From contig JAKLQX010000022.1 in assembly GCA_022013085.1 (NCBI GenBank), positions 1-40,477 on the forward strand: a stretch of 40,477 bases of DNA, written 5' to 3'. Below are positions 28,529 through 31,283 of this stretch, piece by piece. This stretch comes from Candidatus Omnitrophota bacterium. Lineage in GTDB: Bacteria; Omnitrophota; Gorgyraeia; Gygaellales; Profunditerraquicolaceae. The notes beneath the pieces are model-generated. The model was given only the letters and a program-made list of their open reading frames with translations, made no database searches and was not told where the DNA came from. The position numbers and the translations under genes were made by a program. Position 1 is the stretch's first letter. Every line of letters starts with the position of its first letter.

Positions 28529-28573
28529 TTGACAACTAATAGATTGGTGTTATAATTTTTATATTCGTAATAC
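28529..28573 (+). promoter_or_regulatory. nikR promoter with possible NikR half-sites
   Basis: TTGACA (28529-28534), a 16-bp spacer and TATAAT (28551-28556). GTGTTAT (28547-28553) and GTAATAC (28567-28573) form an imperfect inverted pair over the -10 and start site, similar to the GTGTTAC-type NikR half-sites described in some groups. Autoregulation is plausible but the site is weak. Confidence 0.6.
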
Positions 28574-28575
28574 AG

Positions 28576-28625
28576 ACACCCGGCGCTTATCGGAATTGCG
28601 CCGGTGTGCGTCTCTACGCAAGGAG
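28576..28625 (+). promoter_or_regulatory. conserved two-hairpin leader, nikR copy
   Basis: Hairpin 1 is ACA, a bulged C, then CCGGCGC, an 11-nt loop TTATCGGAATT, and GCGCCGG-TGT. Hairpin 2 is GCGT-CTCT-ACGC, followed at once by the Shine-Dalgarno AAGGAG. The same layout with compensating base changes occurs before pstS (34940-34990). Confidence 0.6.
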
Positions 28626-28632
28626 AAGACAT

Positions 28633-29049
28633 ATGTCTTCAATAGCAAGGTTTGGAGTTTCTTTAGATAAAGGGCTTCTGGAAAAATTCGATAAACTCAT
28701 CGAATCCAAAAGTTATACCAATCGTTCCGAGGCTTTCAGGGATTTAATCCGGCAGGAACTGGTAAAGAAAGAATGGTTTGATGCAAATGAAGTTATCGGA
28801 GCGGTTACGCTTATCTACGATCACCACAAGCGTGAGTTAGTGAATACGCTTTTGGATATCCAGCATGAGTTCGGATCTTGTATTATTTCCTCGCAGCATA
28901 TCCATATAGATCATAACAACTGTTTGGAGATACTTGCGGTAAAAGGCTCTCCCGAGAAAGTCCAGCGCTTGTCAGAGAGTCTAAAAGCGGTAAAGGGGGT
29001 GAAGCATTCAACGTTAAGCATGTCTACGACAGGAAGAGGCATAGAGTAG
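28633..29049 (+). CDS. nikR: nickel-responsive regulator NikR
   Basis: A 138-residue ribbon-helix-helix repressor with an ACT-like nickel domain. RHH: SSIARFGVSLDKGLLEKFDK and SYTNRSEAFRDLIR (about 2-40). Nickel ligands align exactly two positions after E. coli NikR: His78, His89, His91 and Cys97. ATG 28633 has AAGGAG upstream; an in-frame extension to 28606 would run into hairpin 1 and is rejected. The following porin and small membrane proteins may be its targets. Confidence 0.93.
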   Translation: MSSIARFGVSLDKGLLEKFDKLIESKSYTNRSEAFRDLIRQELVKKEWFDANEVIGAVTLIYDHHKRELVNTLLDIQHEFGSCIISSQHIHIDHNNCLEILAVKGSPEKVQRLSESLKAVKGVKHSTLSMSTTGRGIE

Positions 29050-29060
29050 TATTATTTTTT

Positions 29061-29210
29061 TGTCTATTAGTAGCACGAATTTGATAAACGTAATAACACG
29101 AATAGTCCAAAGCTTATCACAGTGTGCTACTGAAACAGTAGAATGTGTCGCAGGAAAAAAAGTACAACCCCGCCATCTCCTTGGAAAGAATCCGGCGGGG
29201 CTGCGGTACT
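29061..29210 (+). promoter_or_regulatory. structured leader between nikR and the porin gene
   Basis: In the 250-bp gap, AGTAGCAC (29069-29076) can pair with GTGCTACT (29124-29131), while CTACTG (29127-29132) can instead pair with CAGTAG (29136-29141), so the two folds exclude each other. A strong hairpin follows: AGTAC and CCCCGCC (29161-29174) with GGCGGGG and GTACT (29194-29210). No known riboswitch was recognised. A possible promoter is TTGTCT, 17 bp, GATAAA around 29060-29088. Confidence 0.4.
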
Positions 29211-29299
29211 TGGCGAAGAACATTAAACAACCAAGCCCAGCAATAAGTATACCATAACTTTGAGCTGGTGCAAACAACACTTGAAAGGGGGGTATATTT

Positions 29300-30676
29300 A
29301 TGGCGGTTTTAAAGAAAGCAGCATTATTTTCTCTAGTTTTTTCTTTACTTTGTTCTACAGCGGTTTTTGCTGATGAGGTTTCTATCAGAGAGGAAATCAA
29401 TCAGCTTAAAGAACGCATTACTACTCTAGAAAAGAAAGTTTCCGAGCAAGATACATATATCGCTGCTCAAAATACGACAACCCAGTCGCAGCAGCAGAAG
29501 ATTATAGAATACGAAACAAAATTATCAAAATTTGAAGAAAATCTTCATGAGATACCCGGTACTCCGATGAAACTTATGGAAGGGCTTGAGCTTGGCGCAG
29601 GCGGCACCATGATTGTTCAGGGAACAAATAATACAAATAACGCCACTTCTGATGTAACCAGGAAAGAGGGCCGCGCAGATGCTTCTTATTCAGCAGATAT
29701 AACTCTTGGTAAAGAGTTTAAGGAGATAGGCGGCAAGGCATTTTTGCATCTTGAGGCCGGCCAAGGAGCAGGGCTTGAGGATGATTTAACTCTTTACTCA
29801 AACGTCAATCGTGACGCTGATAATGACAATAATGTACGCCTCACTGAATTTTGGTATGAGCAGGTTTTGTTTAAAGATAAAGTTGCTTTAACTTTCGGTA
29901 AGCTTGATCCTACTGCATATTTTGATCAAAGCGAGGTTGCTAATGATGAAACTACTCAATTCTTGGGCAGGCTTTTTCGGAACTCGCCGACAATAGAATT
30001 TCCGGATAATACCGCAGGTATCCATTTAGCATATATGCCGGTTGGATGGTTAGAGTTGGGATATGGTTTATTTGATGGCAACAACGATTGGGAGAAAATC
30101 GGTGATAATCTCTTTAATATCGGGCAGGTGCATTTTAAAACTAATTTCTTTAATCTACCCGGAAACTATCGTTTTCTTGGTTGGAATAACAATGTTTATC
30201 ACACTAAATGGCAAGATACCGATAAGACAAAAGAAGCTAACTATGGTTTTGGTTTAAGCTTTGATCAGAAAGCCAACGATATCATCACACTTTTTGCACG
30301 TTATGGCTGGCAGAATCCAAAAGTATACAATCCAGACATTATGGCAACAGGTGAGTTGAATTATTCACTAACACATTCCTGGAGTACTGGTTTTCAAGTA
30401 GAAGGAAAGCCTTGGGGGAGAGAAAAGGATATACTTGCATTTGCGGTTGGTCAAGCTATCCCCTCAAAGGATTATAAAAAATACGGTTCGACTCAAATCT
30501 CAAACCCGAGGGCAAAACCAGAAGGGCACTTAGAGGCATATTACAATATCCATATTAATGATCATTTGTCAATTAGCCCTGATTTTCAGTATATTTGGAA
30601 TCCATTTGGCAAGGATATTGCGGATGATACAAATGGAATTTTCGTGGGTGGCATGAGGGCACAAGTAGACTTTTAA
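29300..30676 (+). CDS. outer-membrane porin-like beta-barrel with N-terminal coiled coil
   Basis: A 458-residue exported protein. A signal peptide covers about residues 1-24 (ending VFADE), then a coiled coil (about 26-85, with INQLKERITTLEKKVSEQD) that may span the periplasm. The rest is barrel-like strands rich in aromatic and Gly residues (EFWYEQVLFKDKVALTFGKL, TAGIHLAYMPVGWLELGYG), ending in Phe, the usual outer-membrane sorting signal. It resembles carbohydrate-porin (OprB-like) proteins. The Shine-Dalgarno is GAAAGGGGGG. Placement between nikR and two small membrane genes suggests metal entry rather than sugar, as inference only. Confidence 0.8.
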   Translation: MAVLKKAALFSLVFSLLCSTAVFADEVSIREEINQLKERITTLEKKVSEQDTYIAAQNTTTQSQQQKIIEYETKLSKFEENLHEIPGTPMKLMEGLELGAGGTMIVQGTNNTNNATSDVTRKEGRADASYSADITLGKEFKEIGGKAFLHLEAGQGAGLEDDLTLYSNVNRDADNDNNVRLTEFWYEQVLFKDKVALTFGKLDPTAYFDQSEVANDETTQFLGRLFRNSPTIEFPDNTAGIHLAYMPVGWLELGYGLFDGNNDWEKIGDNLFNIGQVHFKTNFFNLPGNYRFLGWNNNVYHTKWQDTDKTKEANYGFGLSFDQKANDIITLFARYGWQNPKVYNPDIMATGELNYSLTHSWSTGFQVEGKPWGREKDILAFAVGQAIPSKDYKKYGSTQISNPRAKPEGHLEAYYNIHINDHLSISPDFQYIWNPFGKDIADDTNGIFVGGMRAQVDF

Positions 30677-30689
30677 AAAGGAGGAGAAG

Positions 30690-30968
30690 ATGTGGTTAGT
30701 AACAACTTCTATTGCGGCAGCGGGCGCGACTTTAGGTAAGTTTGTTTTGCCCAAAGATTACAAGTTAGGTTTTTTAGCTTTAATGCTCTGGGGAGCAGCA
30801 GTAATGATTCTTATCGACCATATATTAGGATATGAAGGAGGAGCATTCCTAGAGAAGGCAACCGATGGCATGATTAAAAACGGCACTGTATTAGGAATCG
30901 TGATGTTATTACCAGTGTTCATAATCTGGGGTATTTCACTTTTAATCTCAAATTTAAAAAGGAGGTAA
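30690..30968 (+). CDS. small conserved membrane protein A (two to three TM)
   Basis: A 92-residue membrane protein with a strong Shine-Dalgarno (AAGGAGGAG) 13 bp after the porin gene. It begins MWLVTTSIAAAGATLGKFVLPKDYK; hydrophobic spans are at about 2-18, 28-45 and 66-88. The middle helix holds LMLWGAAVMILIDHILGYEGG, with a membrane-edge Asp-His. The next gene has the matching SMLWGGVAMLAIEHISHGE, so the two are distant paralogues that probably assemble together. I believe this gene pair recurs in unrelated anaerobes without a known function; this is recollection, not a search. Confidence 0.75.
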   Translation: MWLVTTSIAAAGATLGKFVLPKDYKLGFLALMLWGAAVMILIDHILGYEGGAFLEKATDGMIKNGTVLGIVMLLPVFIIWGISLLISNLKRR

Positions 30969-30971
30969 AGA

Positions 30972-31283
30972 ATGGCCTGTTTTCTTATTCCTACGGCTGC
31001 GGCAATAGTAACAACTGTTGTAGGAAAAAAAGTTCCTGAGAAATACCACTTCAATTGGTTAAATTCAATGTTGTGGGGTGGAGTGGCAATGTTAGCAATT
31101 GAACATATCTCTCACGGCGAATTTGTTCCTTATCCGCCATTTTTAACTGCCGGTCTTCCCGAAGTTTGGCCGGAAATGATGAGAGTGGGTGTTCCGATGA
31201 CCCTATCTATTTTTCTGATATGGGGGGCAATGGTAACAGTAGTCGCAATAGCGAGTAAAAGAGTAAAGTGTGTAGGGGCGTAA
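30972..31283 (+). CDS. small conserved membrane protein B (partner of A)
   Basis: A 103-residue membrane protein starting MACFLIPTAAAIVTTVVGKK, 3 bp after protein A with AAAGGAGGT as ribosome-binding site. Hydrophobic spans are at about 2-18, 30-48 and 74-95. Between helices lies the exposed GEFVPYPPFLTAGL. Conserved-looking residues Glu-His (IEHISH) mirror Asp-His in protein A and could bind a metal. The gene ends the nikR-side cluster; an intrinsic terminator follows. The function is unknown. Confidence 0.75.
   Translation: MACFLIPTAAAIVTTVVGKKVPEKYHFNWLNSMLWGGVAMLAIEHISHGEFVPYPPFLTAGLPEVWPEMMRVGVPMTLSIFLIWGAMVTVVAIASKRVKCVGA

Follow-up and report, generated by a model that had tools for sequence, protein, structure and literature searches.

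The window, a stretch of 40,477 nucleotides from a Candidatus Omnitrophota bacterium (GCA_022013085.1, contig JAKLQX010000022.1), contains a compact unit of four genes. ORF and coordinate checks placed nikR, an OprB-type barrel and two small membrane proteins, here named subunits A and B, head to tail:

28529..28556, + strand: sigma-70-type promoter TTGACA-N16-TATAAT, 12/12 consensus positions (consensus match, no measurement), position 28529 being the start of the -35 box
28547..28573, + strand: NikR-type operator GTGTTAT-N13-GTAATAC, exact consensus match, overlapping the -10 box
28633..29049, + strand: nikR, nickel-responsive repressor (NCBIfam PRK04460, PF08753, PDB 2bj1)
29049..29076, + strand: second operator of the NikR type, situated between nikR and the barrel gene, one mismatch to the N14 form
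29300..30676, + strand: outer-membrane barrel of the OprB porin family (PF04966), with signal peptide and coiled coil
30690..30968, + strand: subunit A, a protein of 92 aa predicted to have three helices and lacking an N-terminal Cys (family alignment)
30972..31283, + strand: subunit B, a protein of 103 aa likewise predicted to have three helices, with the N-terminus MAC and the motif EHISHGE (AlphaFold2, conservation)
31298..31337, + strand: intrinsic terminator, a 17-pair stem followed by a T-rich tail (stem search, folding)

A Fur-family gene and a ZnuABC-type operon were identified with Pfam directly upstream (25264-28224), so that metal genes also lie on the 5' side of the unit. A ZnuABC operon is likewise found upstream of the related locus L033, and ZIP genes occur near L036/L046, L048 and L049. 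The sequence-only reading had described a barrel followed by two distantly paralogous small membrane proteins under a strong terminator, each protein carrying MLWG and then an acidic-His motif (IDHILG or IEHISH). All of this held: gene order and coordinates were confirmed, A and B share 33% identity over 82 columns, MLWG...IDHILG and MLWG...IEHISH are both present, and the terminator region (31290-31350) folds with -25.8 kcal/mol (z = -6.2). Of the NikMNQO genes said to be absent nearby, NikM is indeed missing from the stretch of the window examined; the genome does contain CbiM/NikM and CbiQ on another contig (C52). That reading had missed the N-terminal Cys of B, a single-gene form of the family (type C, below), the upstream fur and znuABC genes, the NikM elsewhere in the genome and the two NikR-type operators.

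NikR qualifies as a member of its family: it scored 181 bits against a cut-off of 105 (PRK04460), matched PF08753, has both the RHH and NikR_C domains above the curated cut-off, and has solved homologues (PDB 2bj1, E 2.9e-39). Its ligand region contains HIHIDHNNC, which we take to be the NikR ligand motif, and ATG 28633 is favoured as start over GTG 28606. The operator at 28547-28573 is exact to GTRTTAY-N13-RTAAYAC, a pattern that occurred in 0 of 100 shuffles, and for the one-mismatch operator at 29049-29076 (N14 form) 0.10 matches are expected by chance. The form of the window operator agrees with the published delta-proteobacterial NikR consensus GTGTTAC-N13/14-GTAACAC (PMC545781), an agreement of sequence without binding data. 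A scan of an earlier set of the loci for sites matching at least 13 of 14 positions returned 23 matches in 1.15 Mb versus 5 in one mononucleotide shuffle. The window, L033, L035, L045, L046, L048, L062, L183 and L184 each have an operator-like site immediately 5' of nikR, and in L050 one precedes A; L033 also has a site similar to the second window operator. The barrel met the test for the OprB family (PF04966, E 2.1e-32, 113.4 bits versus a cut-off of 22.9) and weakly matched Porin B in the PDB (E 0.0013); its signal peptide was assigned by eye.

Subunits A and B affiliate with no Pfam or NCBIfam family above cut-off. In a search of the genome with B as query, A was the sole other match. None of 82 family members reached any Pfam cut-off, and A, B and one C were all without a match in NCBIfam. 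A profile of the family detected no relative among PDB sequences (best E 0.66). Two weak similarities, PF07663 for B (17.8 bits versus a cut-off of 25) and the holin phrog_4325 for one clostridial A (E 0.0068), were judged to be chance matches. No description of the family was found in the open-access literature searched, a scope that left out most subscription papers as well as TCDB and the AlphaFold DB; PMC2667541, PMC7583248, PMC13056359, PMC10066038 and PMC11338639 are cited without an individual claim. As far as these searches show, the inner-membrane A/B/C family is undescribed and belongs to no family tested.

Iterated searches resolved three types: B, which begins with MAC; A, which lacks the Cys; and the single-gene type C, which begins with MCY. 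After exclusion of five weak or partial rows from 144, the set consisted of 139 good distinct rows (15 B and 14 A from Omnitrophota, 53 B and 44 A from Clostridia, and 13 C). In a quick tree of these rows over 122 columns, A, B and C separated, each on one side of a branch, with modest SH-aLRT support (90, 92 and 91, respectively) and a long-branch warning. This split fits one duplication before the copies of the two phyla parted. The gene order is A-B in 14/14 omnitrophotal pairs and B-A in 45/45 clostridial pairs, counts that include repeated loci of the same pair, and the intergenic gaps range from -4 to 21 nt. Searches for C on plasmids or phages gave no match, and none was confirmed for B on viral contigs.

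The AlphaFold2 model of B, of moderate confidence only (pLDDT 74.8, pTM 0.60), consists of helices at residues 5-18, 27-47 and 62-102, and that of C of three long helices (pLDDT 90.1, pTM 0.79). The distribution of positive charges predicts an outside N-terminus and an inside C-terminus for 67/68 B, 13/13 C and 57/57 A. By this measure A and B are not antiparallel, and with both in the same orientation a two-residue link would be unable to join them. An N-terminal Cys is present in all 81 B and C sequences and in 0/58 A. In the B and C alignment, E/D44, His45, Glu50 and E/D68 are each conserved in 81/81, while position 48 is His in 68/68 B and Asn in 13/13 C; the motif common to both types is the N-terminal Cys plus E/D-H-x-x-(H/N)-x-E. 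The corresponding residues of the window protein, Cys3, Glu44, His45, His48, Glu50 and Glu68, are all invariant, and the predicted topology places the conserved ligands of B and C at or near the outer face. In A the acidic residue is kept in 58/58 sequences and the His in all 14 from Omnitrophota, and 42/44 clostridial A have Ala in its place. As the Cys-His-Glu set occurs in B and C and not in A, B and C would bind the metal and A would complete the path; metal binding itself is inferred. Fold searches were uninformative: with B or C as query, Foldseek found no PDB match at E<=0.001, a BFVD search returned nothing for C, and a VIA comparison covering few chains only Z values up to 5.6 (B) and 4.6 (C), under the tool's meaningful level.

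The family was detected in 23/285 Omnitrophota genomes. None of the 15 other genomes of the window's genus has it, and the distribution is therefore patchy. Its genes often have NikR, hypE or a [NiFe]-hydrogenase operon as neighbours, and nickel genes adjoin 8/15 A-B loci and 9/13 C loci. In the eight A-B loci (the window, L033, L035, L045, L046, L048, L050 and L051) NikR lies within five genes. The contig ends upstream of A-B in L034, L047, L052 and L055, L054 comprises the barrel and then nearly the contig end, and only L049 and L053 (2/15) have room upstream and no NikR. The barrel at the A-B loci is of the OprB type in six and belongs to a PF13557-type cluster in four. Among the C loci, NikR is close in five (L062, L064, L066, L183 and L184), C follows hypE in two (L063 by NCBIfam, L060 by its AIRS domain pair) and precedes a [NiFe]-hydrogenase operon in two (L056, and L185 via shared gene clusters). 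No nickel gene was found at L057, L058, L061 and L065 (4/13), L058 being cut by a contig end.

The family and NikM/CbiM appear to exchange for each other. Across the 285 genomes, NikR was found in 88, CbiM in 102 and [NiFe]-hydrogenase in 152. Genomes with the family more often have NikR (13/23 versus 75/262 of the others, p=0.0087; the remaining 10/23 have no NikR match) and [NiFe]-hydrogenase (21/23 versus 131/262, p=1e-4). CbiM among all genomes does not differ significantly (4/23 versus 98/262, p=0.069). Among the NikR genomes, NikM/CbiM is present in 3/13 with the family versus 64/75 without it (p=1.5e-5), and among the hydrogenase genomes CbiM is present in 4/21 versus 83/131 (p=2e-4). 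These Fisher tests ignore the kinship of the genomes and their values overstate independence. Of the 67 genomes with both NikR and CbiM, 56 have the two no more than 5 kb apart. In G094, a member of the window's genus, locus L203 reads nikR, barrel, NikM, the last occupying the slot filled by A-B in the window. The NikM on C52 of the window genome is located at the contig end, beside an apparent glycine-cleavage set (gene names by eye); given an estimated bin contamination of 5.13%, this is either a genome with both systems or a mixed bin. NicO and HupE were found in 0/23 family genomes and CbiQ in 4/23. SBP_bac_5 proteins, a family spanning NikA-like and peptide binders, occur in 12/23. Nine of the 23 (G036, G106, G108, G171, G214, G215, G235, G245 and G278) have a hydrogenase match and none for CbiM, CbiQ, NicO, HupE or SBP_bac_5, with the reservation that bins are incomplete.

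A second context comes from Clostridia: in the class to which the clostridium G286 belongs, 36/341 genomes have a family match. Ruminococcus albus 7 and Lachnospira eligens are among the named hosts, and both genes are called hypothetical there. After removal of repeats (L180, L193-L195) and of weak or cut loci (L177, L196, L197), 54 loci remained; these are not independent, as several genomes contribute more than one and L039 and L040 are near-copies. The lactate-racemase cofactor genes larE, larB or larC lie within 3 kb of 21/54 and cooS of 3/54, 24/54 in total, with examples of LarE, LarB, LarC and CooS above NCBIfam cut-offs; neither is found at the other 30. As a rough estimate, with one lar cluster per 2.5 Mb genome, about 0.1 of 54 loci would have it within 3 kb by chance. 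Other neighbours within 3 kb are a cluster of genes with the Cu_amine_oxidN1 domain (20/54) and an ArsP_1 permease (14/54), and DUF362 proteins are encoded immediately upstream on the same strand in 19/54. No NiCo riboswitch was detected in the 12 clostridial loci searched, a part of the set, where tRNA was the only Rfam match.

A link of the A/B/C family with nickel is strongly supported, although no experiment has been made. That its members import nickel is probable, with context as the only basis and transport inferred. The unit in the window is best read as a NikR-repressed nickel uptake operon with an A-B importer in the inner membrane. Computed support for this probable reading consists of the operator and promoter matches, operon order, family membership, genomic contexts, the NikM exchange and the conserved residues; transport, metal binding, the complex, its direction and the energy source are inferred. 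When nickel is scarce, NikR would leave its operator and the operon would be transcribed. Through the barrel, Ni2+ would reach the periplasm, either free or chelated. In the inner membrane, the three-helix subunits A and B would assemble into a hetero-oligomer, each with its N-terminus on the outside and its C-terminus on the inside, and B would capture Ni2+ at the outer face with its N-terminal Cys, Glu44, His45, His48, Glu50 and perhaps Glu68. Ni2+ would then move inward through the complex without an ATP-driven ECF module, as through a secondary carrier or a channel, and C may be the same device in one gene. The lack of a CbiQ match in 19/23 family genomes indicates that such a module is not needed; for the same genomes, an ECF S-component using a common module was rejected.

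The hypothesis of a two-component small-subunit carrier of nickel or another metal was thus essentially right as far as context supports it, transport being inferred. Between uptake and efflux, which the sequence-only reading had left open, uptake is favoured, both by the NikM exchange and by the NikR-type site that overlaps the promoter. A pair mostly occurring away from metal genes would have refuted the idea, and the neighbourhoods (8/15 A-B, 9/13 C and 24/54 clostridial loci) do not do so. The His pair makes up only part of the likely site, and clostridial A has lost its His.

Three alternatives were considered. The one that survives best, though unlikely, is nickel handling without import, in which the proteins would sit at the outer face as a membrane-anchored metallochaperone or store and pass nickel on to another transporter or to a nickel enzyme outside the cell. 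The very small subunits, the conserved ligands at one face, the DUF362 genes upstream of 19/54 clostridial loci (DUF362 belongs with LarA to Pfam clan CL0471; PMC11770544) and several loci with B followed by an ArsP_1 permease in the absence of A speak for it. Against it, the family replaces NikM among NikR genomes, and for nine genomes the families tested yielded no known importer. LarBCE, HypE and CooS, moreover, act in the cytoplasm. Efflux of, or resistance to, nickel or cobalt is very unlikely. Metal genes are nearby, and some loci adjoin ArsP_1 proteins, whose matches to Cu/Zn efflux models stay below cut-off, but the NikR-type site overlaps the -10 box, so nickel should repress the unit, NikM is replaced by the family, and an exporter makes little sense beside genes for cofactor building and nickel enzymes. 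Transport of zinc, cobalt or iron with NikR present by chance, suggested by the fur and znuABC genes upstream of the window unit and by znuABC and ZIP genes at the few loci named above, is also very unlikely, since zinc genes are not a shared feature of most C loci or of Clostridia, and NikR, CooS, lar and [NiFe]-hydrogenase genes have only nickel in common.

Returning to nickel import, a bolder reading can be offered, towards which, taken as a whole, we lean by a narrow margin. A/B/C would constitute a new nickel importer family whose subunits, of three helices each, are the smallest known for this task. C would act as a homo-oligomer, and the A-B pair would have arisen by one duplication, only B keeping the external Cys-His-Glu site. 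Working without an ATP-driven module, the family would substitute for NikMNQO in Omnitrophota, and in gut Clostridia it would supply CODH and the pathway to the nickel-pincer cofactor. If true, one more protein family joins the short list of nickel importers, and the supply of nickel to hydrogenase, CODH and the nickel-pincer cofactor is explained in anaerobes without any importer tested. Hypothetical proteins of gut bacteria such as R. albus 7 and L. eligens would gain a function, and the three-helix system would offer a minimal model for selective metal transport.

As a system, NikR-controlled nickel uptake is already known, and so is the logic of the operon. With NikABCDE the unit shares regulation by NikR and differs in containing no ABC subunits. 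SemiSWEET and the mitochondrial pyruvate carrier are small three-helix carriers, the latter a pair of paralogues. A and B resemble them in subunit size and, likewise, in forming a paralogous pair; they differ in that no structural match to such triple-helix bundles was obtained for B or C at E<=0.001 (few chains in VIA), which does not exclude one. Secondary import of Ni2+, as proposed for A/B, is shared with the NiCoT/NicO and HupE/UreJ families. The proteins are nevertheless unrelated to these by Pfam: A, B and the family have no similarity to PF03824 or PF04955 and failed both membership tests, and neither family occurs in the 23 genomes. The ECF-type nickel/cobalt transporters NikMNQO and CbiMNQO differ as well, in that A, B and the 82 family members have no similarity to CbiM (PF01891) and so do not qualify as NikM/CbiM, consist of three-helix subunits and mostly occur without CbiQ. 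They share with the unit, in the window's genus, the operon slot after nikR and the barrel, and NikM, which depends on its N-terminal helix for the metal (PMC5037267), shares the external N-terminal metal site proposed for B and C.

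DUF362 proteins (LarA clan) are encoded directly upstream of the pair of small membrane proteins, A and B, in the clostridial loci L038, L144, L147, L150, L161, L162, L164, L165, L171, L174 and L175. Some of these adjoining proteins contain a Cu_amine_oxidN1 domain, and larE/B/C together with an ArsP_1 permease often accompany the arrangement. The DUF362 proteins beside the pair may possibly be extracellular nickel-pincer enzymes. In L186-L191, B is present without an adjacent A and the full pair is located elsewhere in the same genomes; the lone B is followed by ArsP_1 except in L189, where the contig ends. 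In L177 (genome G600), a long open frame of 446 aa terminates in an A-like sequence (2551-2868), conceivably either a fusion or a false frame.

The following features were assigned in the window and in L203, the locus from a genome of the same genus:

Window 16250-16439: FMN riboswitch, scoring above the gathering score
Window 25264-28224: genes for a Fur-family regulator and an operon of ZnuA/ZnuC/ZnuB type, adjoining the nikR unit on its 5' side
Window 28221-28466: DsbD_TM (CcdA-like) reading frame of 81 aa, immediately 3' of znuB
L203 4729-6806: operon of nikR, barrel and NikM

The omnitrophotal locus L033 likewise carries znuABC. Its relative of the DsbD_TM frame comprises 262 aa (L033 2199-2987); the window frame appears truncated. 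Genes resembling a glycine-cleavage set neighbour the L203 operon. In L053 of the Omnitrophota genome G171, in which no match to NikR was found, a Fur-like gene (7238-7711, 30% identity) adjoins B and might encode a nickel-type regulator.

Passages of two papers on CODH gene contexts describe the ABC genes without mentioning the small pair, which in the clostridial loci L031, L042 and L044 occurs in the order B-A together with CooS and an NMT1-like ABC transporter.
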